Assembly (NCBI GenBank): GCA_903875575.1
Contig: CAIQWJ010000052.1
Coordinates: 1 to 64,000 of the forward strand
Direction of reading: 5' to 3'
DNA: 64,000 nt
Source: an uncultured Acidobacteriia bacterium
GTDB taxonomy: Bacteria; Acidobacteriota; Terriglobia; Bryobacterales; Bryobacteraceae
In this document: piece after piece, positions 9,872 through 21,633 of the stretch
Numbering within the stretch: position 1 is the stretch's first letter
How the letters are laid out: every line of letters begins with the position of its first letter
Made by a program: the position numbers and the translations under genes
Notes under the pieces: generated by a model
The model's input: only the letters and a program-made list of their open reading frames with translations
Database searches by the model: none
What the model was told of the DNA's origin: nothing

Positions 9872-10690
9872 ATGAACCTGGACAACATCGTAAGAATCGC
9901 TGAAACAACACTGACCGGAGTGGGCCTGAGGGTCCTTGGGGCTATCGTTCTTTACATCGTTGGCCGCTGGCTGATCACGTTTGCGGTTGGCCTTGTGCAA
10001 AAAGGCCTGACCCGTCAGAAGCTGGAGCCCACCCTGCTCCGCTTCATCGGCAACACGATCTCGGTCGTTCTCAATATCACGCTGGTGCTGGCGATCCTTG
10101 GCTACTTCGGAGTCCAGACCACGAGTTTCGCCGCGCTGCTGGCAGGCGCTGGGCTTGCGATTGGTTCCGCGTGGGGAGGTCTGCTGGCCAACTTCGCCGC
10201 CGGCATCTTTTTGGTGGTGTTGCGGCCTTTTAAAGTGGGAGATTTCATTTCCGCCGGCGGCACCACGGGCACGGTGGAAGAAGTTGGCCTGTTCGTGACG
10301 ACCATCGACACACCGGACAACGTCCGCACGTTTGTCGGCAACAACAAGCTGTTTTCCGACAACATTCAGAACTTCTCCACCAACTCCTACCGGCGGGTGG
10401 ATCTCACCGCGCAGATTTCCGGCGCGGCCGACCCCAAACAGGTCATCGCGGCACTCAAGGCGCGCATTCGTCAGATTCCCAACGTGGTGGCAAAACCAGA
10501 GCCCGACGTCGTGATCGGCACGTTTACCGCCGTTGGCCCGGTACTCTCGATTCGTCCGTACACGAATAACGATTTCTACTGGCAGGTTTATTTCGATACC
10601 AATCTCGCGATACGCGAAGTCCTGGGCGACGGTGCGTTCCCCGCCCCCATGCCGGTCTTCGGTATCCAGCAGATTGAGCCGAAAGCGTAG
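9872..10690 (+). CDS. Small-conductance mechanosensitive channel (MscS family)
   Basis: A 272-aa inner-membrane channel that opens under membrane tension to release solutes on hypo-osmotic shock. Three N-terminal helices are visible. The third carries the glycine/alanine-rich pore pattern FAALLAGAGLAIGSAWGGLL, then LANFAAGIFLVVLRPFKVGD, which leads into the beta domain (GTTGTVEEVGLFVTTIDTPD). These are diagnostic of MscS. The length is close to E. coli MscS (286 aa). The ATG has GAGG 6 nt upstream. It stands alone, followed by a stem-loop. Confidence 0.93.
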   Translation: MNLDNIVRIAETTLTGVGLRVLGAIVLYIVGRWLITFAVGLVQKGLTRQKLEPTLLRFIGNTISVVLNITLVLAILGYFGVQTTSFAALLAGAGLAIGSAWGGLLANFAAGIFLVVLRPFKVGDFISAGGTTGTVEEVGLFVTTIDTPDNVRTFVGNNKLFSDNIQNFSTNSYRRVDLTAQISGAADPKQVIAALKARIRQIPNVVAKPEPDVVIGTFTAVGPVLSIRPYTNNDFYWQVYFDTNLAIREVLGDGAFPAPMPVFGIQQIEPKA

Positions 10691-10755: not shown

Positions 10756-13038
10756 ATGACCCGCAAGCTTTACATCCTGCCCCTGCTGTTCAGCGCAGCC
10801 CTGGGCCTGAGCGCCCAGACACTGGAACTGACCGGGCAGGTGACGGACCCTCAGGGCCGCACCGTCGCAGGCGCGGCGGTTCACCTGCGGCGAGGCGCAA
10901 CGGATCTGGGTCTTGCGAAGACGGATGCCGACGGCCATTTCTCTTTCAGGGGTCTTTCCCCGGACGATTATCTTCTTGCGGCCGAGGCTCCCGGCTTTAC
11001 CAGAATCTCCCGCCAACTGCGCTTTCCCGCTGTGAACAGCACCGGCGACCTTCAGTTCCAGCAGGTTTCCGCGCAAACGCAAAGCCTGGTCATCACGGCG
11101 AAGACGCTGGAGCCCGCCATCGACCTTCGCAACTCCGAAGTCTTCAACCGTACTCTCTTCACCCGTGACGACCAGGTTTTTCAGCAACTCGATGCCGGCA
11201 TCAACGCGGGCCAGCATGAAGGCGGCGGTAAATCGCTGGAGATCCGCCGCTTCGGTTTCAATCTCGATCACGGCGGCGTCAACGGCGGCCTCAAGGTTCT
11301 GCTCGACGACGTGCAGCAGAATCAGGGAACTCAAGGGCACGGCCAGGGCTACCTCGGCTCATTGAAATCGCTGAGCCCAGAATTGATTCAGGACGCCACC
11401 ATCATCAATGGCCCGTTCAGCGCCGAATATGGAGACTTCAGCGGTCTCGGTGTCGTCCACATTCGCCAACGCGAGTCCATGCCGGATCCGTTCACCGCGC
11501 GGCTCGAAGGCGGCAACTACGATACCGGGCGCGGCTTCTTCGCTTACAGCCCGAACGCCGCCAAAGTGGATTCCTACATCGCTTATGACGGGTCTTACGC
11601 AGACGGGCCGTTCATCAATGCCGGCCGCTACCGCCGCGACAATATCAACGCGAACTACAGCCGCGCGCTGTCGGAGAAAACGAAGATCGGTTTCCGGTTT
11701 ATCTTCGGCCGCAATGATTTTTATTCATCCGGCCAGATTCCGCTTGATCTGGTCGCAGCCGGCACTCTCGACCGCTTCGGTTATATCGATCCTTCCGATG
11801 GCGGCCGCGTCAAACTGGGCACTCTCTCCGCTTACTACAGCACGGTGCGGAAGAACGGCGACACCCTGCGTGTGGATGGTTTCGTCGGCCGGTCGCTGTT
11901 TGACCTGTATTCGAACTTCACTTACTTCCTGAATGATCCCGTCAATGGCGATGCCTTCCAGCAGCACGATTCGCGGCTGCAGCAGGGAGCGAACGCGCAG
12001 TACACCCACGTTCACAAGCTGGCCGGCGCGCTCGCCACCTTCACGGCGGGAAGTAACTTTCACGATAACCAGATCAACGTGGGCCTCTACCCACGCGAGG
12101 GTCGCACGCCCACCGGCGTGACCACGCGGGCGCATGCGCACGTCACCAACGAAGCCGGCTACGGTCAGGAAACGGTCAGCCTCTGGAACGGACGCGTGAT
12201 TCTGGGCGCGGGCCTTCGCTTTGACGAATTTCGTTACAGCGTGCTCGATCTGGTCAATCCGGCAGATAGCGGCACAAAGCCTGCAGGACGCTGGCAGGGC
12301 AAGGGCAGCATCGCTTACACGCCCTCGCACCGCGCGCCCGTGACGTTCCACGCTAATTACGGCCGGGGCATTAACAGCATCGACGCGCGCGGCGTGGTGC
12401 AGCAACCGGACCAGCCGCGTCTGGCCACGACGGACTTCTATCAGGTGGGCACTGCATCGAACTTCCGCCGGCTCTCTATCAGTACCGACGCGTTTCTGAT
12501 CAACCACTCGAACGAGCAGGTTTACATTCCGGACGATGGCAGCTTTGAGTTCAAAGGCCCCAGCCGCTCTTACGGCTATGAGGCCAAAGCGTCTGTGGAA
12601 CTGACCCACCATGTTTCCGTGAATGGCGGGCTGACAAAGATCGGCAACTCTTACTTCCTGGGCGGCGATCACCGCGTGTATGTGGACAGCGCGCCGCATT
12701 TTGTCGCTAACGCCGCGCTGACGGTGGCTGCATGGAATGGCTGGAGCGGTTCGCTGCGTATGCGCGCCATCAACCACTATCGCCTCGATGGCGACAATCC
12801 CTCCATCTTTGCCTCCGGTCACACGGTGCTGGATATGGGGGTTTCGAAGCAAGTGAGCCATCGTGTGGAACTGAGTCTCGCGCTCGATAATCTGACGAAC
12901 CGCGATTACTACGAAACGCAGAACTATTTCGAATCCCGCGTCTCTCCGGATGCACCTGCAATCGCGCGAATCCATGCGACGCCGGCGTATCCGTTCAGCG
13001 CGGTTTTAGGCATGACGATGCGCTTCGGCGGCAGGTGA
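10756..13038 (+). CDS. TonB-dependent receptor with N-terminal carboxypeptidase-regulatory domain
   Basis: A 760-aa outer-membrane receptor. A signal peptide (LLFSAALGLSAQ, cut near residue 21) is followed by a carboxypeptidase-regulatory-like beta-sandwich (LTGQVTDPQGRTVAGAAVHL, about residues 25-105). Next comes a plug domain (about 115-240, with IINGPFSAEYGDFSGLGVVH), then a long beta barrel ending in an aromatic-rich strand (MTMRFGGR). This build is greatly expanded in Acidobacteria and Bacteroidetes for uptake of large or chelated substrates. No canonical TonB box stands out. The ligand is unknown, and the neighbours (mscS, DUF3738, GH99-like) do not settle it. Confidence 0.87.
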   Translation: MTRKLYILPLLFSAALGLSAQTLELTGQVTDPQGRTVAGAAVHLRRGATDLGLAKTDADGHFSFRGLSPDDYLLAAEAPGFTRISRQLRFPAVNSTGDLQFQQVSAQTQSLVITAKTLEPAIDLRNSEVFNRTLFTRDDQVFQQLDAGINAGQHEGGGKSLEIRRFGFNLDHGGVNGGLKVLLDDVQQNQGTQGHGQGYLGSLKSLSPELIQDATIINGPFSAEYGDFSGLGVVHIRQRESMPDPFTARLEGGNYDTGRGFFAYSPNAAKVDSYIAYDGSYADGPFINAGRYRRDNINANYSRALSEKTKIGFRFIFGRNDFYSSGQIPLDLVAAGTLDRFGYIDPSDGGRVKLGTLSAYYSTVRKNGDTLRVDGFVGRSLFDLYSNFTYFLNDPVNGDAFQQHDSRLQQGANAQYTHVHKLAGALATFTAGSNFHDNQINVGLYPREGRTPTGVTTRAHAHVTNEAGYGQETVSLWNGRVILGAGLRFDEFRYSVLDLVNPADSGTKPAGRWQGKGSIAYTPSHRAPVTFHANYGRGINSIDARGVVQQPDQPRLATTDFYQVGTASNFRRLSISTDAFLINHSNEQVYIPDDGSFEFKGPSRSYGYEAKASVELTHHVSVNGGLTKIGNSYFLGGDHRVYVDSAPHFVANAALTVAAWNGWSGSLRMRAINHYRLDGDNPSIFASGHTVLDMGVSKQVSHRVELSLALDNLTNRDYYETQNYFESRVSPDAPAIARIHATPAYPFSAVLGMTMRFGGR

Positions 13039-13069: not shown

Positions 13070-13804
13070 TCAATTGGACGAAGGCTTCTCCACCTGATCG
13101 ATTACAACAATCTCCACCTGCCGTCTCGTCGAAACCAACCGAAGCCCGAGCGGCTGCAGCGCGGCAAAAATGGATGGGCCGGCGGCGTCCGGTGCCTGGT
13201 CGGGCGTCCATCGCAGGTCGAAATCGAATTCTCCCTGTACTCCTGTCGCGTCCACAACGGGCCGGCCAACCTGCCGGGCCAGCGAGGCAGCGAAGTCCGG
13301 CAACGATAACCGGGTCGCCCGGAGCGTCACCGTTCCCGAACCGGAATTCGTGCTCATCGAGGGCTCGCCCCCGCCGGTATGCGGACGAAGCCTGAGACCG
13401 TCTTTCGCCGTCTCCAGCGTGAACACCGTCTCTTCTTTGGCGTTACGGTGATACCTTAGCCGGAACCGGTCTTCGAGCAACTGCAACATCAGGGCCTGAA
13501 TGTTGGTGCGGTCGATTTCGATTCCACCTGCCGTCCTGGCATTGATGTCATAGCTCACGGAATCCACCCACCCCGGTATTCCGGAAATCCTTTGGTCTTC
13601 AATGGCGAAAGCATTGCGGATCAGCTTTCGGATCCCGACGTTACTCCCGACAAACCTTCCGCCGGGCAGGACCTTCGTGTCCGAACTCTCGGAATTTGGA
13701 TCCGACAGGAATACATGCGGTCGGATCGAAGCAACCTCAAACGCGGGCGACTGCGCGAGGCAGACAGCAACCGACGCGACGGCAAAGACGAGCGGACGGA
13801 ACAT
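13070..13804 (-). CDS. DUF3738 (TIGR03435) secreted protein
   Basis: A 244-aa member of the DUF3738/TIGR03435 family, which is strongly expanded in Solibacter and relatives and has no established function. After a signal peptide (FAVASVAVCLA) come the family marks: FEVASIRPH at the mature N-terminus, a PGGRFVGSNVGIRKLIRNAF segment, ISGIPGWVDSVSYDINAR, LLEDRFRLRYHRNAKE, and a C-terminal GEFDFDLRWTPD. I chose the ATG at 13804 because it leaves a compact signal peptide; a GTG at 13828 is the alternative. It is convergent with the TonB receptor. Related family members sit beside or fused to M56 peptidases, and here a BlaI/M56 locus lies 2.7 kb away. Confidence 0.9.
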   Translation of the reverse strand: MFRPLVFAVASVAVCLAQSPAFEVASIRPHVFLSDPNSESSDTKVLPGGRFVGSNVGIRKLIRNAFAIEDQRISGIPGWVDSVSYDINARTAGGIEIDRTNIQALMLQLLEDRFRLRYHRNAKEETVFTLETAKDGLRLRPHTGGGEPSMSTNSGSGTVTLRATRLSLPDFAASLARQVGRPVVDATGVQGEFDFDLRWTPDQAPDAAGPSIFAALQPLGLRLVSTRRQVEIVVIDQVEKPSSN

Positions 13805-13889
13805 GAAACCTGATACGAACGTTGCCACCGGGAAAGTTCACAAGAAGCGGCACCTGCGCGTTGATACGATGGCGTTGCGCCGCCATAAC

Positions 13890-15263: not shown

Positions 15264-15692
15264 TCAATTGAGAGTTTGATGAACGAAGATTCTCCAATTC
15301 GGTGATTTAGTGACGCTCTCGTTCACTAAGACAAACACTTCAGAATGCAGACCCGTGATCCCCGTATCGGGGTGGTACTGACATGAGACCCGCACTGTGG
15401 CGATATCCGGACCCGGAAACTCGATGGCATTAATTGTGCGATCCACATGCCCTGTAATACCGTTCCATAACTTGGCCAGGTTTGCCCTCCCACGGACCCT
15501 GGTCAACTCGTCGTTTTGAATCCACTCCCCGTCTTCTGTGTACAACGCCGCGACCGAGTTGCCGTCATGGGCGTTTCTGGCGTCTCCGAATGTCTTGATG
15601 AAGGCGCGGATCGCGTCTTCTCTGTTGGCCGGTGTCTGAGCGTGCCCTGCAAGAACAGTGAAGGCCAGGAGGGCGACGATGAGTCTTTGCAT
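15264..15692 (-). CDS. Secreted SnoaL/DUF4440-like protein
   Basis: A 142-aa protein with a clear signal peptide (LIVALLAFTVLAGHAQ). The NTF2-like cone fold follows: REDAIRAFIKTFGDARNAHD, AALYTEDGEWI, RGRANLAKLW and a final strand WRIFVHQTLN. This matches the SnoaL/DUF4440 group, small proteins that bind hydrophobic ligands or act as simple enzymes. No catalytic function can be assigned. It is a stand-alone gene convergent with the GH99-like gene. Confidence 0.75.
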   Translation of the reverse strand: MQRLIVALLAFTVLAGHAQTPANREDAIRAFIKTFGDARNAHDGNSVAALYTEDGEWIQNDELTRVRGRANLAKLWNGITGHVDRTINAIEFPGPDIATVRVSCQYHPDTGITGLHSEVFVLVNESVTKSPNWRIFVHQTLN

Positions 15693-15796: not shown

Positions 15797-15825
15797 TTGA
15801 CTTGACGATAAACATCGTCAATAAT
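15797..15825 (+). promoter_or_regulatory. Promoter of the blaI-like operon
   Basis: TTGACT (-35, 15797-15802), a 17-nt spacer and AATAAT (-10, 15820-15825). The predicted start site is about 7 nt downstream, at or next to the ATG at 15832, so the message is probably leaderless. The palindromic operator fills the spacer. Confidence 0.6.
15802..15821. promoter_or_regulatory. Candidate BlaI-family operator
   Basis: TTGACGAT-AAAC-ATCGTCAA is a perfect 8-bp inverted repeat with a 4-nt centre, lying between the -35 and -10 boxes. A dimeric winged-helix repressor of the BlaI/MecI type bound here would block RNA polymerase. The half-site differs from the staphylococcal TACA/TGTA type. Confidence 0.7.
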
Positions 15826-15831
15826 AACCCC

Positions 15832-16221
15832 ATGACGCTCGATGACCGTCCCCGCCCCACCGAAGCCGAGCTCATCATCCTCCGCGTCCTTTGGGATCAC
15901 GGCCCTCTCTCTGTCCGCGCCGTCCTCCGCATCCTCAACCTCGAAAAACCCTTCGGCTACACCAATATCCTCAAGACCATGCAGGTCATGACCGACAAAG
16001 GACTGCTGCTCCGCGATGAATCCTGCCGGCCTCAGATCTACCGCACCCGCGACTCCCGCGACCAAACGCAAAGCCAGCTCCTTCGCCACATGGTGGAACG
16101 CGCCTTCGGGGGTTCCACCCGCGCTATGGTTCTCCACGCGCTCTCCGACCAAAAATCCTCCGACGCGGATCTCGCGGAAATCGAAGCACTGCTGGACAAA
16201 CTCGAAGGAGCGAAGAAATGA
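15832..16221 (+). CDS. BlaI/MecI-family transcriptional repressor
   Basis: A 129-aa winged-helix repressor. It has the family's opening PTEAELIILRVLWDHGPLSVR, the recognition region YTNILKTMQVMTDKGLL, and the wing with the QIYRTRD motif. The acidic C-terminal helix bundle is used for dimerisation. In the beta-lactamase paradigm the partner M56 peptidase triggers cleavage of the repressor. The gene overlaps the M56 gene by 4 nt, so the pair forms one regulatory unit. The ATG at 15832 follows the operator directly with no Shine-Dalgarno sequence. No beta-lactamase is encoded nearby. Confidence 0.92.
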   Translation: MTLDDRPRPTEAELIILRVLWDHGPLSVRAVLRILNLEKPFGYTNILKTMQVMTDKGLLLRDESCRPQIYRTRDSRDQTQSQLLRHMVERAFGGSTRAMVLHALSDQKSSDADLAEIEALLDKLEGAKK

Positions 16222-19022
16222 CGCCCATCGCCCAGGCCGTCACCGGTGCCCTGCTCCAGTTCGTCTGGCAGGGTTGCCTGGTCGCCGCGCTGCTGTGGGC
16301 GGCCCTGTTTCTCCTGCGAAAACACTCGCCCAACGCGCGCTATCTGGCTGCCTGCGCCGCGCTCGCACTGTTGGCTATTCTGCCGTTCGCTACCGCGTTC
16401 GGCCTTTATACTCCCGCTACGGTAAGCCGCGAATCAGCGGTCCTTACCCTGACGATCCGCGCCGTCTGGTCCGGCAACCTGCCCGCGCCCCAACAGTTCA
16501 TCGCCGCCGCGCAACCATGGATCCTCCGCCTCTGGCTCCTCGGTGTGACATTCCTATCCATTCGTCTGGTCTGGACCGGCGCACGCATTGCCTCTCTGCG
16601 CCAAGCTGCCACTCCTGCCGAGCCTTACCTCAACGTGGTGGCGGTGCGCATCGCACAGCGCATGGGAACGCATCGCGCCGTTCGACTGCTGATCTCAGCC
16701 ATCCCCGATGGCCCGAGCCTCGCCGGCTGGATTCGCCCCGTCATCCTTCTGCCTGTATCAACACTTCTCAATCTGACGCCTGAGCAACTCGAGGCCGTGC
16801 TCGCTCACGAGATCGCACACCTTGCCCGGTATGACGACCTGGTCAACATCGCGCAATCTCTCATCGAAACGATACTCTTCTACCACCCGGCGGTCTGGTG
16901 GGTCTCGGGTCGCATCCGGCATGAGCGCGAACTTTGCTGTGACGATCTCGCCGTGCGAACCTGCGGCGACGCTCTCTGCTACGCCCGCGCTCTCACCACG
17001 CTCGATAAACTTCGCGTGCGTGCCCCGCGTCTCGCGCTCGGCACCACCGATGGTTCGCTCAAGTTCCGCATTCGCCGCATCGTAGGCGCGGGAAATCCGC
17101 CCACCTCCGAAATCGGGCAGGCTGCGCTCTCGGGACTTCTTGCTCTGTGCCTTACCCTGGCTGCTTTCACGATCGATGCCCATCCCGCCCATGGAGCGCC
17201 TGCGTTGTCCCGCAAGCCCCAGGTGGAATACCCGGCAGCCGCCATCGCGAACGGAATTCAGGGCACTGTGCCAGTGAACGTGGTAGTTGACGCTGCTGGA
17301 ACTGTCAGCCATGCGCGCGCCCTTGGCGGCCCGCGTGAATTGCGCGCTGCCGCTGAACAGTCGGTCGCTGCGTTGCACCTCGCGCCGGGCCCGCAACGGA
17401 TCGACGTCGCTTTCCAGTTGGCTGCGGCCACCCCGGCAGACAAGGCATCCGAAAAAGCGACCCTCGAAGGCACGATCATGGGTCCCGGCGGCAAGCCGCT
17501 CTCCAAGGCGACCGTGCGCCTGAACCCGGTCGGCAATCCGCAGGGCCGTCAGCCCCTGCTGGCCGTCACCACCGTGACGGATGCCAGCGGTCATTTCATC
17601 TTTGAGCAGGCGAATCCCGGCCGCTACAATGTTCGCGCCGAACACGCCGGCTACATATCTGGTCTGCTGAGCCTGGTAGAGCCGGCGCCCGGGCAGCGCA
17701 TCGCGGACCTGCGGCTTGCCCTGATCCCTATGGCTATCGTTTCGGGTCGCGTCGTCGACGAAGACGGCGATCCCATGGAAGGCGTCACCGTCCGCCGTTT
17801 CGTCTTCCGCTATTCCGATGGCCAACGCCTTCCCAACACACTCGGCGAAACCAAGACGGACGACCGCGGTGAATTCCGTATGGTCGGCGTCTCGGCAGGC
17901 AAAGTTTTTCTGAATTTCACGCCGGTGGGCAGTTCCTCCTACGGCACCGTGGGTGAAGATTATCAGCCGCGTGCGGCAGTTCGCACGAAAAGCGAAGAGA
18001 GTTACATCACCACGTATTATCCCGGCGTCACGGATGCCGCTGCTGCCGTGCCGCTCACCATAGGGCCGGGGCAGGACCTCGCCGGGCTGAAGGTCGTCAT
18101 GAAGAAGGCACCGGTCTTCCACGTTCGCGGCAAAGTTGTGGATGCGCCGCTGACGGGAGCCATCCGCAGGGTCGGTGACTGGCAACCGAATTCCGGTTTC
18201 GTCTTTACGCCCGTTGCGAAGGATGGCAGTTTCGATTTCGCCGGGCTTTCCCGGGGCCCTCATACTCTGATCGTGACCGGGGATAGCGATGAGATGGGGA
18301 TGGTCGCGGTCATCCCGGTCACGGTCGGTACGGAAGATAGCGAAATCACCATTGCCGTGCCGCCGCCCGCGAAGCTGGAGGGCATCGTCCGAATCGAAGG
18401 CACTCCGCCGCCTGATTTTTCGCTCACGTCGGTGAAAGTCACCATTGCCACAAACTCGTGGCTGTACTATCCCAAAGACGCAAACCCCGCCGCGGATGGA
18501 TCGTTTTCCATCGATGGCATTCGGCCACGTCAGTACAGCTTTCAGGTGACCGGTCTGCCCGTCGGCGGCTATCGGAAGTCCGCAACGCTCGGCGGTCGCG
18601 ACGTGCTTTCGAGCCAACTGGACCTCAGTGGTGGCATGGCAGGTACGCGTCTTGAAATCGTGATCAGCATGGCTGGCGGGAAGATCTCCGGCCTGGTCAC
18701 AGTGGCCGATGGCGAGCAACTCTCCGGAACTCGTCTGGCTCTTGTTCCGGATACGCCGATGTTCGATAAGAGTTGGCTCTACCGGCGTTTCAACGCGGAT
18801 CCACAAGGTCGGTTCGAACTGAACGGCATCTCGCCAGGCAAGTATCGTCTCTATGCGGTGGAGCAACTCGAGAACGGCGATGAAACCGATCCTGAATGGC
18901 TCCGCATCCATCGTGATCGCAGCATCCCGGTGACTGTCGCGGAACACGACGCGCTGCAATTGACGTTGAAGCGCGCCTCGCAGGCGCAACTGAACGATGA
19001 CCAAAAGGCGGCAGGCCAATGA
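16218..19022 (+). CDS. BlaR1-like M56 peptidase fused to TonB-C and carboxypeptidase-regulatory repeats
   Basis: A 934-aa membrane protein. Residues 1-310 hold several transmembrane helices and the M56 metallopeptidase domain, with the zinc motif HEIAH at 197-201 and ERELCCDD near 236-243. A last helix (LSGLLALCLTLAAFTI) leads outside. Then come a TonB C-terminal-like domain (about 330-405, VEYPAAAIANGIQGTVPVNV) and at least three carboxypeptidase-regulatory-like beta-sandwiches (ATLEGTIMGPGGKPLSKATV, IVSGRVVDEDGDPMEGVTV, GKISGLVTVADGEQLSGTRL). The penicillin-binding sensor of classical BlaR1 is missing, so the ligand is probably not a beta-lactam. The next gene overlaps by 4 nt. Confidence 0.9.
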   Translation: MTPIAQAVTGALLQFVWQGCLVAALLWAALFLLRKHSPNARYLAACAALALLAILPFATAFGLYTPATVSRESAVLTLTIRAVWSGNLPAPQQFIAAAQPWILRLWLLGVTFLSIRLVWTGARIASLRQAATPAEPYLNVVAVRIAQRMGTHRAVRLLISAIPDGPSLAGWIRPVILLPVSTLLNLTPEQLEAVLAHEIAHLARYDDLVNIAQSLIETILFYHPAVWWVSGRIRHERELCCDDLAVRTCGDALCYARALTTLDKLRVRAPRLALGTTDGSLKFRIRRIVGAGNPPTSEIGQAALSGLLALCLTLAAFTIDAHPAHGAPALSRKPQVEYPAAAIANGIQGTVPVNVVVDAAGTVSHARALGGPRELRAAAEQSVAALHLAPGPQRIDVAFQLAAATPADKASEKATLEGTIMGPGGKPLSKATVRLNPVGNPQGRQPLLAVTTVTDASGHFIFEQANPGRYNVRAEHAGYISGLLSLVEPAPGQRIADLRLALIPMAIVSGRVVDEDGDPMEGVTVRRFVFRYSDGQRLPNTLGETKTDDRGEFRMVGVSAGKVFLNFTPVGSSSYGTVGEDYQPRAAVRTKSEESYITTYYPGVTDAAAAVPLTIGPGQDLAGLKVVMKKAPVFHVRGKVVDAPLTGAIRRVGDWQPNSGFVFTPVAKDGSFDFAGLSRGPHTLIVTGDSDEMGMVAVIPVTVGTEDSEITIAVPPPAKLEGIVRIEGTPPPDFSLTSVKVTIATNSWLYYPKDANPAADGSFSIDGIRPRQYSFQVTGLPVGGYRKSATLGGRDVLSSQLDLSGGMAGTRLEIVISMAGGKISGLVTVADGEQLSGTRLALVPDTPMFDKSWLYRRFNADPQGRFELNGISPGKYRLYAVEQLENGDETDPEWLRIHRDRSIPVTVAEHDALQLTLKRASQAQLNDDQKAAGQ

Positions 19023-20632
19023 GGAAACTCCTGCTGTCTCTTCTGGCTGCGATGACCCTTGCCGCGCAGACCGGCGCGACCCTAACGGGTCACGTTGCTG
19101 ACCCTCATGGCCAGCCGATCACGAAAGCGACCATCCTCCTGCGTCCCGTGCCAACCGCGCCTGGTCCACCGCCGCAGCCCTACGCCGCGCTTACCAACGA
19201 CAAAGGCGATTTCTTTTTCGAGGGCGTTGACCCCGGCAACTATACTCTCTCCGCAACGAGGACGGGATTCCTGCCCTTCACTCTGGGCGCAACCCACGCG
19301 AGCCCGGCCGCCCGCCCCTTTACGCTGGTTGCCGGCAAGCCCGCCTCGCCCGTCGCCATCGTGCTCACGCCGGCCGCTGCCATCTCAGGCAAAGTCCTCG
19401 ATGAAGACGGCGAACCCGTCAGCGCGTTTCTCACCATATCCAGGGAGCGATTTGAGGAGGGCGTCCGCAAACTCGTCATCGTGAAAGGAGTCTTTCCGGA
19501 AGTGGATGGCGATGGCCGTTATCGGATCTCGGGGCTCGAAGCTGGTCGTTACTACCTCACGGCACGGGCTCCCGGGCCCGTGATTCCGTTTCCCAGTGGA
19601 GGCTATGCCAGCACGAACGGCGCCGTCTTCATCGCCACGCAGGTAAATTCAGCAGCGAGACCTGGCACCCCGAAGAGCGACTATACTGCAACCTGGTACC
19701 CCGATGCCATCGACCAGCGCGATGCCAGACCACTGGACCTCATCGCAGGACAGGAACTATCGGGCGTCGATATCAGAATGCGCAAGTCCGCAGTTTTCAC
19801 GATGCGCGGCCGGATCAACGGCGCAATACCCGGCCATCCGGTCGATCAATATCGAGTGCTACTTTCCGCGCCCGATCGCACGAGCGGCGTCATGGCGACG
19901 TTGTCACCCAACGTCTCGCCGGACGGCACTTTTGAAATCGTCGGGATTCCAAACGGCGATTACGATCTCACGGTCGCTTCCGGCAGACTCGGTGGCCCAA
20001 CCCCGCCGCTCTCAGCCCAGCGCGTCTCCGTTCGCGGTCACGATGCGGAGGGCGTTGTCATCGATCTCAAACCGCTCGGAAGCGTCTCCGGCAGCATCGT
20101 TTCCGGTAATGACAAACCGGCCAGCGGCGTGACGGTCAATCTGACGTCAGTCGATGGCCCGCTCGTCAAACTGAAATCCGGACCTACGAAAGAGACAGTC
20201 CAGTTCGAGCTTTCCGATGTTCCACCCGGCAACTATCGGGTCTCGGTTACCGGCAACGTGCCCGGCACCTATTTGAAACCAGGCCCCACACTCGAAGTCA
20301 TGTCCGGCGTGGCTATCGACAAACTCCAACTCACCCTCGGCCAGGCCGGTATCGTGACGGGCACTGCTCCCGCAGGCTACCTGATCACTTTGGTCCCCGA
20401 ACCCCTGCGTCCCGATCTACCCGAACTCTATAAACAGGCGGTCACCGACGACCGTGGCCAATTCGATCTCCCCAGCGTGCCCCCCGGAGCCTACCGAGTC
20501 TTCGCGTGGAAAGACATCGAGCCAGGTGCCTGGTTCGACCCCGAATTCCTGAAGCCGCATGCCGCCCAAAGCGTGCCGGTGACCATCGAAGAAAACGCCA
20601 CTGCGCAGGTCAAGCTACCAGGGATTCAGTAA
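19019..20632 (+). CDS. Secreted carboxypeptidase-regulatory-like repeat protein
   Basis: A 537-aa exported protein. A signal peptide (LLLSLLAAMTLAAQ) is followed by about five beta-sandwich repeats of the carboxypeptidase-regulatory/Cna-B-like type. The repeats start at ATLTGHVADPHGQPITKATI, AISGKVLDEDGEPVSAFLTI, and further on SVSGSIVSGNDKPASGVTVN and similar. It has no enzymatic motif. Its repeats closely resemble the external part of the preceding M56 protein, and the ATG overlaps that gene's stop. Part of the M56 ectodomain may therefore have been duplicated, or the two may form an extracytoplasmic complex. The second idea is inference. Confidence 0.85.
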   Translation: MRKLLLSLLAAMTLAAQTGATLTGHVADPHGQPITKATILLRPVPTAPGPPPQPYAALTNDKGDFFFEGVDPGNYTLSATRTGFLPFTLGATHASPAARPFTLVAGKPASPVAIVLTPAAAISGKVLDEDGEPVSAFLTISRERFEEGVRKLVIVKGVFPEVDGDGRYRISGLEAGRYYLTARAPGPVIPFPSGGYASTNGAVFIATQVNSAARPGTPKSDYTATWYPDAIDQRDARPLDLIAGQELSGVDIRMRKSAVFTMRGRINGAIPGHPVDQYRVLLSAPDRTSGVMATLSPNVSPDGTFEIVGIPNGDYDLTVASGRLGGPTPPLSAQRVSVRGHDAEGVVIDLKPLGSVSGSIVSGNDKPASGVTVNLTSVDGPLVKLKSGPTKETVQFELSDVPPGNYRVSVTGNVPGTYLKPGPTLEVMSGVAIDKLQLTLGQAGIVTGTAPAGYLITLVPEPLRPDLPELYKQAVTDDRGQFDLPSVPPGAYRVFAWKDIEPGAWFDPEFLKPHAAQSVPVTIEENATAQVKLPGIQ

Positions 20633-20692
20633 TCCGTGGACTTTCGTTTCTTCACGCACTAAAGACCGCCTGAACATCTGACCGCGACCGGG

Positions 20693-20703
20693 TGTCACTG
20701 ACA
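20693..20703. promoter_or_regulatory. Small palindrome upstream of the DUF3738 promoter
   Basis: TGTCA-C-TGACA is a perfect 5-1-5 palindrome ending 10 nt before the -35 box at 20714. It could be a regulator site. It is not the same sequence as the operator before blaI. Confidence 0.3.
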
Positions 20704-20713
20704 GAGAAAAGGG

Positions 20714-20742
20714 TTGCTTTTTCTGAATAGAGGGTCTAGAAT
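20714..20742 (+). promoter_or_regulatory. Predicted promoter of the second DUF3738 gene
   Basis: TTGCTT (-35), a 17-nt spacer and TAGAAT (-10, 20737-20742). Transcription would start near 20749, only about 3 nt before the ATG at 20752, and no Shine-Dalgarno sequence is present. This suggests a leaderless or nearly leaderless mRNA. Confidence 0.5.
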
Positions 20743-20751
20743 CGACCTCGC

Positions 20752-21633
20752 ATGAGATATATAACAGTTGCATTGTTCTTAGGGAGATTGGTCTGGGCTC
20801 AAACAACGACTGGAGCGCACGGGCCGGCGACGTTCGAAGTGGCTTCTGTTAAGTCAGATTCCGGACGATATATCAACCTGACAGGTGGTCCGGGTACTTC
20901 CGAGCCTGAGAGAATTTCCTATTCCGGTCTGACGCTGACGCACCTGATCACAATTGGCTACGATATTTTTGAAGATCAGCTTTCGGGTCCCGAATGGATG
21001 AACACTGAGAAATATGCCGTCGAAGCAAAATTGCCGGCAGGGACGAATCGTGAGCAGTTCCACGAAATGCTGCGAAACCTGCTGACGGAGCGTTTCGGAT
21101 TGCTTCTTCGACACGAGACTAAGAACACCGCAGTCTATGAATTGGTCGTCGCCAAAGGCGGCCCGAAGATGCAAAGGGCGGCCGTGAGTGTGTCGGCTCC
21201 CGGCGGGCTCCCCGTGCCTCAATCACTTTCTGACGCGCCGATCACTGACAAGAATGGTTGTCCGGTCAGGGCAGTGGGCCTTCACGGATATACTATTGAT
21301 CGCAATCATCCGGTTCCGTGTGGCACATTCCGGAACGTCTCGACATTGGATCTGGCCCAGTACCTTGAGCATTTTGTCGGATCAGAACTCTTTGGCCCGC
21401 TGACGGCTCGCGTGCATGTGACAGATGAGACGAACCTCGAGGGTAAATTTGACTTTACGCTGCACTGGGACTTCAACCCCAAACTGCCCCGAAGTGTAGC
21501 AGCCGAGCCCGACCTGGGTCCAACTATTTTTGAGGCTCTTGAAAAGGAGCTTGGCTTGAAGCTGCAAAAAGTGATACTGTCTCTTGAGTTTCTAGTAGTC
21601 GAGCGCGCCAATAGGGTGCCTACGAGCAATTAA
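20752..21633 (+). CDS. DUF3738 (TIGR03435) secreted protein
   Basis: A 293-aa DUF3738/TIGR03435 protein of unknown function. A short signal peptide is followed by FEVASVKSDSG, GLTLTHLITIGYDIFEDQLS, GPEWMNTEKYAVEAKLPAG, MLRNLLTERFGLLLRHETKN, LAQYLEHFVGS and the C-terminal GKFDFTLHWDFN. These occur in the same order as in the copy at 13070-13804, to which it is only distantly similar. It has its own promoter 120 nt after the carboxypeptidase-regulatory gene and reads in the same direction as the BlaI/M56 operon. Family members elsewhere are fused to M56 domains, which supports a link to that locus. Confidence 0.9.
   Translation: MRYITVALFLGRLVWAQTTTGAHGPATFEVASVKSDSGRYINLTGGPGTSEPERISYSGLTLTHLITIGYDIFEDQLSGPEWMNTEKYAVEAKLPAGTNREQFHEMLRNLLTERFGLLLRHETKNTAVYELVVAKGGPKMQRAAVSVSAPGGLPVPQSLSDAPITDKNGCPVRAVGLHGYTIDRNHPVPCGTFRNVSTLDLAQYLEHFVGSELFGPLTARVHVTDETNLEGKFDFTLHWDFNPKLPRSVAAEPDLGPTIFEALEKELGLKLQKVILSLEFLVVERANRVPTSN

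Follow-up and report, generated by a model that had tools for sequence, protein, structure and literature searches.

The 64,000-nucleotide stretch analysed here (the window) comes from contig CAIQWJ010000052.1 of an uncultured Acidobacteriia bacterium of the Bryobacteraceae (assembly GCA_903875575.1). It contains a gene for a BlaI-type repressor, followed by genes for an M56 membrane protease and sensor, for a secreted protein with repeats of the carboxypeptidase-regulatory-like (CPR) family PF13620, and for a DUF3738 protein (Table 1). An earlier note on this DNA proposed that these genes form a transmembrane signalling system for a ligand other than a beta-lactam, with DUF3738 as partner or output.

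Table 1. Features of the locus, with positions in the window
Feature	Position	Strand	Evidence and remarks
TonB-dependent receptor with N-terminal CPR domain	10756-13038		Pfam; 2.8 kb upstream of blaI
Second DUF3738 gene	13070-13828	-	TIGR03435 190.2 bits, cut-off 40; probably a bystander
blaI promoter and putative BlaI operator	15797-15825	+	-35 TTGACT 15797-15802, -10 AATAAT 15820-15825, read by eye
Inverted repeat TTGACGAT-AAAC-ATCGTCAA (core ACGA-N6-TCGT)	15802-15821	+	Fills the spacer between -35 and -10
blaI, BlaI/MecI-family repressor, 129 aa	15832-16221	+	PF03965 E 4.9e-21
M56 gluzincin protease/sensor, 934 aa	16218-19022	+	PF05569 E 2.8e-21; TonB_C PF03544 E 8.7e-9; three PF13620 stretches
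Secreted CPR protein, 537 aa	19019-20632	+	Four PF13620 stretches; N-terminal hydrophobic stretch resembling a signal peptide
Possible promoter of the DUF3738 gene, TTGCTT-17 nt-TAGAAT	20714-20742	+	By eye; without a BlaI-type core
DUF3738/TIGR03435 protein with signal-like N-terminus	20752-21633	+	TIGR03435 198.7 bits, cut-off 40; reciprocal best hit of the L147 cassette copy

As that note had seen, blaI, the M56 gene and the CPR gene overlap by 4 nt each, both junctions having the form ATGA. The downstream DUF3738 gene does follow, but it does not overlap: it starts 119 nt after the CPR stop codon, and possibly has its own promoter. The Penicillinase_R domain of BlaI scores 75.7 bits (Pfam cut-off 22.6). 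The open reading frame tool placed the blaI start at TTG 15802, which is inside the putative operator; ATG 15832 is the plausible start. Pfam assigns DUF3738 to both DUF3738 genes.

The sensor is divided approximately into a BlaR1-like membrane and zinc-protease part (residues 1-320), a TonB-C domain (327-402) and a chain of CPR/transthyretin-like β-sandwiches (409-920). The M56 domain scores 76.4 bits against a Pfam cut-off of 31. The HEXXH motif is intact, as had been claimed (HEIAH at 197-201), and is accompanied by EXXXD (ELCCD from 238). Hydrophobic windows peak at 15-33, 43-61, 102-120 and 299-317, which is compatible with the four membrane helices of BlaR1 described in the available part of PMC9834060; weaker windows at 168-186, 495-513 and 812-830 also exceed the hydropathy threshold. 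An AlphaFold model of the sensor (mean pLDDT 79, pTM 0.51, from a 16-sequence alignment) was compared with the PDB. Residues 8-280 superpose on S. aureus BlaR1 (8exs; Z 19.3, 4.2 Å over 244 residues), residues 327-402 match the C-terminal domain of TonB (9ddz; Z 9.7), and residues 414-505 match the transthyretin-like domain of carboxypeptidase D (5aq0; Z 12.2, 1.5 Å over 80 residues). The best named relatives of the sensor are from Bryobacterales and other Acidobacteriota, with other phyla further down.

The earlier note held that the TonB-C domain and at least three CPR repeats replace the penicillin-binding sensor of BlaR1, and that a penicillin-binding fold in the ectodomain would speak against its proposal. 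None was found: Pfam detects no transpeptidase or beta-lactamase family in the M56 protein at E ≤ 0.01, and a penicillin-binding domain is absent from the 50 structural matches listed and from NCBIfam matches outside the protease region. The NCBIfam models for BlaR1 (the equivalog blaR1_generic, 51.7 bits against a cut-off of 400, residues 101-250) and MecR1 (16.2 bits against 1200, residues 102-243) match weakly, both within the protease region. Beta-lactam sensing was rejected on this basis, TonB-C and CPR domains occupying the place of the penicillin-binding domain. A plasmid search with the M56 protein returned 12 records, none of which reached 80% coverage.

The secreted protein carries the same repeats as the ectodomain, in agreement with the earlier note. 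PF13620 scores 106.3 bits in the M56 protein and 127.4 bits in the secreted protein (cut-off 32.3), and the two are paralogous, with 29% identity over 566 columns and a phmmer E value of 1.2e-42. The fusion of M56 with CPR is rare. When 257 genomes of the order were searched with a profile, four of the 150 listed rows were full-length matches, a lower bound since mostly three candidates per genome were scored. A same-strand CPR gene adjoins the fusion in all four loci found, which supports the linkage that the note had asked to be surveyed, as far as CPR is concerned. Besides the window, these loci are L147 (genome G006, of the same genus), in which the CPR stop codon is followed after 1 nt by a DUF3738 gene; L034 (the CAIRXZ locus, the same place as G191 by coordinates); and L032 (the PMTT locus, the same place as G292 by coordinates), whose contig ends inside the CPR gene and which has a DUF3738 gene 2.5 kb upstream of blaI. 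In L034 a local profile found no DUF3738 downstream, and a fourth frame after the CPR gene was discarded as it looks spurious and has no Pfam match.

Trees were built from chosen rows with identical ones dropped (74 M56, 35 CPR and 71 DUF3738 rows). The M56 tree places the focal protease in a TonB-C clade of 15 rows (support 100/100), 13 of which have a TonB-C match by local profile, and within this in a group of five with its own-genome paralogue on contig C74 and with L027, L030 and L120 (100/99). These four group-mates have no CPR match. The M56 proteins of L147, L034 and L032 form a separate clade (100/99). In the CPR tree, a single clade of the four ectodomains is rejected by the approximately unbiased (AU) test (p 0.0012; without L032, p 0.0026). 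Fusion of CPR domains to M56 has therefore happened on at least two occasions, and in both lineages a CPR gene stands alongside. The ectodomains and the secreted proteins of L034 and L147 form sister groups (four rows, 100/100).

The order has a large paralogous family of stand-alone secreted CPR proteins, about 530 aa long, members of which were noted in L150, L153, L154, L157, L160 and L161. They often occur as tandem pairs, and L150 has four in succession. Ten CPR-gene neighbours were scanned for a common function, and none was seen.

The promoter region of blaI contains an inverted repeat, TTGACGATAAACATCGTCAA, at 15802-15821, which the earlier note had put forward as a site for BlaI and which we regard, from its sequence and position, as a putative BlaI operator. 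The blaI message is probably leaderless, because the ATG is only 6 nt past the -10 element. The core of the repeat was counted in the region up to 150 bp upstream of the BlaI domain, with random windows of the same loci as background. Among loci fetched as relatives of the sensor, it is found upstream of 77 of the 84 blaI genes, compared with 30 of 1680 random windows; 67 of the 84 have at least two copies, and in 64 TTGAC directly precedes one. In the organism's own genome it precedes 3 of 12 blaI genes (0 of 240 random windows). Different inverted repeats precede others of these blaI genes, for example in L110, L111 and L112, which suggests that the systems are insulated switches. The core occurs in the window at 10055 and 15805 only. 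The longer form GACGA-N6-TCGTC occurs at ten sites in the whole genome, and the reversed pattern at one. Four of the ten are at promoters or gene starts, namely that of the focal blaI and three in the C74 sister locus.

Going beyond the earlier note, the similarity between sensor and neighbour is seen again in further M56 systems, where different domains are involved. M56 ectodomains of at least 80 aa were compared with open reading frames within 5 kb that are neither M56 nor BlaI. The first set consisted of 80 loci fetched with the whole focal sensor as query, CPR part included, which could favour CPR loci. A homologous neighbour was present for 17 of its 81 ectodomains (permutation mean 2.4, maximum 7 of 2000 permutations), and one of the 17 is a CPR pair (L034). 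The second set consisted of the first 60 M56 places listed with frames of at least 550 aa in a 149-genome sample of the phylum, leaving out the organism's own genome and two places that fell inside regions already included. Here, 8 of 63 have a homologous neighbour (mean 0.7, maximum 5). For the union, in which the one contig common to both sets was merged, the count is 24 of 143, compared with 2.6 expected and a maximum of 9 in 2000 permutations. L032 is uncounted in these figures, its overlapping CPR frame being outside the neighbour rule. An earlier count of 24 of 108 (mean 2.7, maximum 9 of 1000) was redone, as it mixed in loci chosen for their DUF3738 or CPR matches.

All 27 matching neighbours lie on the strand of the sensor, against 48% of all neighbour open reading frames. 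The positives span eight ectodomain clusters by sequence, and among the paired ectodomains are CPR, DUF3738 and leucine-rich repeat types as well as families with no match in Pfam. In four loci (the C74 sister locus, which is L113, and L027, L030 and L209), where the look-alike gene is upstream of blaI, cores are found before blaI as well as at the look-alike gene's own start. This second location is the best indication that the look-alike is an output.

Two families of look-alikes may be mentioned in their own right. The genes at L113:6816-8183 (G000 C74), L027:6083-7381 and L209:10095-11435 form a family homologous to the adjacent M56-TonB-C ectodomain, and two members scanned had no Pfam match. 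At L054:10165-11286 and L048:10139-11296, the M56 ectodomains and the downstream proteins consist of many short repeats of the 'RDHGV' type, which have no Pfam match at cut-off and belong to the largest look-alike cluster.

On the basis of gene order, domains, motifs, the inverted repeat and paralogy, which are read from the sequence, and of repeated independent fusion, which comes from the trees, we hypothesise that the locus is an autoregulated BlaI/M56 operon of the BlaR1 kind, not concerned with beta-lactams, in which the sensor is a paralogue of the secreted output. We consider this reading about evenly poised between right and wrong. By binding ACGA-N6-TCGT in the spacer between -35 and -10, BlaI would repress its own transcription. 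The M56 protein would sit in the membrane with its zinc protease towards the cytoplasm; on the outside it would present the TonB-C domain and the chain of transthyretin-like CPR sandwiches, which share their family with the secreted protein. On meeting a ligand or partner the ectodomain would activate the protease, the protease would cleave BlaI, and the operon, above all the secreted CPR protein, would be expressed. Protease activation, cleavage of BlaI and derepression are modelled on BlaR1, as set out in the available part of PMC9834060; what the ligand is and what DUF3738 contributes are likewise conjectural. Through its TonB-C domain, the sensor may in addition contact TonB-dependent receptors. 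Of the transmembrane signalling system proposed earlier, the BlaI/M56 architecture with a TonB-C/CPR ectodomain is thus seen in the sequence, whereas signalling itself is presumed.

A more general proposal is that M56/BlaI systems have a self-mirroring architecture, in which the ectodomain is a tethered paralogue of the secreted protein that it induces, and both recognise the same ligand. We offer this tentatively and think it rather unlikely to hold as stated. If it were true, the sensing of beta-lactams by BlaR1 would be one case beside eight ectodomain clusters with such pairs, and the function of an orphan M56 sensor could be read from the adjacent gene. If the outside part does copy the output, the ligand question becomes testable for many orphan sensors through the secreted partner, and DUF3738 gains a first experimental handle.

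Several observations weigh against the operon hypothesis and its extension. The focal CPR pair are not sisters in the CPR tree, where a sister relation is nevertheless not rejected (AU p 0.17). Across the phylum-wide set, the core was found in just 10 of 62 blaI upstream regions (3 of 1240 random windows), so it is specific to this blaI clade and not general. The other six of the ten GACGA-N6-TCGTC sites lie outside recognisable promoters, as judged by eye, five of them within open reading frames of at least 150 aa. By sequence comparison, 119 of the 143 M56 proteins have no homologous neighbour, and the pattern is therefore recurrent and not universal; moreover, a single large cluster accounts for 16 of the 24 positives. 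The Foldseek list for the whole sensor model is headed by Gram-positive pilins and adhesins with large root mean square deviations, with BlaR1 at rank 28.

The secreted CPR protein might instead be an accessory part of the sensor, which binds the ligand or caps the ectodomain and signals to M56 through contacts between sandwiches. The overlapping genes in the window and the tight spacing in L147 and L034 suit a stoichiometric partner, and the sister groups formed by ectodomains and secreted proteins in L034 and L147 are what would be expected for two subunits of one assembly. However, the look-alike genes of the sister TonB-C systems have an operator core at their own starts, which is what one would expect of an output. 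We judge the accessory role to be unlikely as the explanation of the locus, and add that it is compatible with a role as output. Alternatively, the TonB-C domain could be the real sensor, contacting a TonB-dependent receptor such as the CPR-headed one encoded 2.8 kb upstream and reporting transport. The domain is supported both by Pfam and by fold, and the local profile matches it in 13 of 15 rows of the focal M56 clade. The same profile, however, finds no TonB-C domain in the three members of the independent M56-CPR lineage, and other genes separate the receptor gene from the sensor. We regard this as a poor candidate. Least credible by far is the view that the locus is an ordinary BlaI/BlaR1 system for beta-lactam resistance that has been mis-described. 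The BlaI and M56 families are indeed present, and the DUF3738 model has a weak, non-significant resemblance to penicillin-binding proteins (best E 1.7, Z at most 2.7), but TonB-C and CPR domains are found where the penicillin-binding domain would be, and the eight window proteins scanned with Pfam include no beta-lactamase, penicillin-binding protein or transpeptidase family.

The place of DUF3738 has to be weighed separately, since it may be a bystander that is near many genes by chance. The genome contains 134 TIGR03435 matches, fragments included, and 10% of the genome lies within 3 kb of one, a density at which proximity by itself says little. The focal gene has a promoter-like sequence and no operator core before it, no copy was found downstream in L034 by the local profile, and a related DUF3738 gene in G012 (L197) has no BlaI, M56 or CPR gene within 19 kb around. 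On the other side, a DUF3738 gene lies within 3 kb of 7 of the 12 own blaI genes against the 10% expected (binomial p 6e-5), where 3 kb is the best of five distances tried (the others gave p 0.016 at 1 kb to 2.6e-4, with 8e-4 at 5 kb), loci are assumed independent and the focal locus is counted through its upstream copy. The focal downstream gene and the L147 copy are reciprocal best hits in 41 genomes searched, clearly in one direction (205.1 bits, next 149) and narrowly in the other (204.9, next 200.9), with fewer than 60 of 130-180 DUF3738 candidates scored in the richest genomes. In the DUF3738 tree, these two and the unlinked G012 copy form a clade of three (100/95), within which the L147 copy pairs with the G012 copy and not with the focal one (99/71). 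DUF3738-M56 fusions, which the earlier note had mentioned, are present in L109 and L111 of the own genome and in L075, L079, L211 and L212. We regard chance proximity as a serious possibility, if on balance a doubtful one, and DUF3738 as a likely but loose associate of the cassette, of which the downstream gene is probably a member, without certainty. The suggestion that DUF3738 is partner or output thus draws on fusions, proximity and reciprocal best hits, and loses by the L034 and G012 cases and by a possible promoter of its own without operator. The second, upstream copy that the note had counted in is present, but it lies on the opposite strand with two unrelated genes between it and blaI (GH99-like, to 15170, and SnoaL-like, 15264-15692); given the background density as well, its linkage is not supported, and a role in the system was rejected.

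The function of DUF3738 was approached through its predicted structure. The model (pLDDT 75) has no significant fold match, the best Foldseek E value being 1.7; in a second structural comparison, five of six rows (Z at most 2.9 for the six) were of penicillin-binding or DacA type, which we take as noise. When the DUF3738 alignment was searched against PDB sequences, no match had an E value below 0.48. The succession of helices and strands in the model prompted the idea of an STN-like domain, for which there were no STN matches in 13 genomes and no significant fold match. No function or structure was found on record for DUF3738/TIGR03435 in the literature searched, which was limited mostly to non-subscription journals.

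Two loci show DUF3738 in unusual numbers. L115 (G000:C22:67400-87375) has blaI and a roughly 90-aa fragment of M56, after which seven frames holding ten DUF3738 domains extend towards the contig end; it is either a decayed sensor locus or an expansion hot spot. L212 (G008:C109:10000-29900) has one blaI followed by three tandem M56-DUF3738 fusions, and a further M56-DUF3738 with a separate DUF3738 gene nearby.

The own genome has 14 M56 matches, in ten groups headed by blaI. Their outside parts differ widely (L107-L109, L111-L114), and include CPR, DUF3738, one or two TonB-C, SLBB/polysaccharide-export, TPR and GWxTD domains. Several M56 genes may stand behind a single blaI, three in L107 and two each in L108 and L114.

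Fusions of M56 with TonB, annotated as BlaR1/TonB, exist, in which M56 is accompanied by a periplasmic TonB-C domain. Unlike such fusions as we know them, the focal sensor has its TonB-C domain in front of a chain of CPR sandwiches and is encoded together with a secreted paralogue. A literature search for M56 proteins with CPR or DUF3738 ectodomains gave none among the matches listed, which is weak evidence of absence since few subscription journals were covered. The downstream DUF3738 gene is a clear member of the paralogous TIGR03435/DUF3738 family.

The system most readily compared is BlaI/BlaR1 of S. aureus (PMC9834060, in the part available), which likewise consists of a repressor and a membrane gluzincin protease with HEXXH and EXXXD motifs and an outside sensor; the predicted protease part of the focal protein superposes on it (Z 19). 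Small, self-regulated BlaI regulons with inverted repeats have also been described in Clostridium thermocellum, where, in the accessible text of PMC8457756, one operon comprises BlaI, BlaR1 and two hypothetical proteins; the operator there is GTCTAT/GACTAT, unlike the focal core. In contrast to BlaR1, the focal ectodomain consists of TonB-C and transthyretin-like sandwiches without a penicillin-binding domain, and its genes overlap in an operon that includes a secreted CPR paralogue, with no beta-lactamase or penicillin-binding protein among the window proteins scanned. BlaR1 is known as a sensor of antibiotics, and the outside parts of the M56 proteins in this one genome are far more varied. 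Nevertheless, according to the portion of PMC7593790 that is available, the BlaR1 sensor resembles class D beta-lactamases. In BlaR1 too, then, the sensor resembles the kind of protein that is induced, and BlaR1 fits the same scheme.

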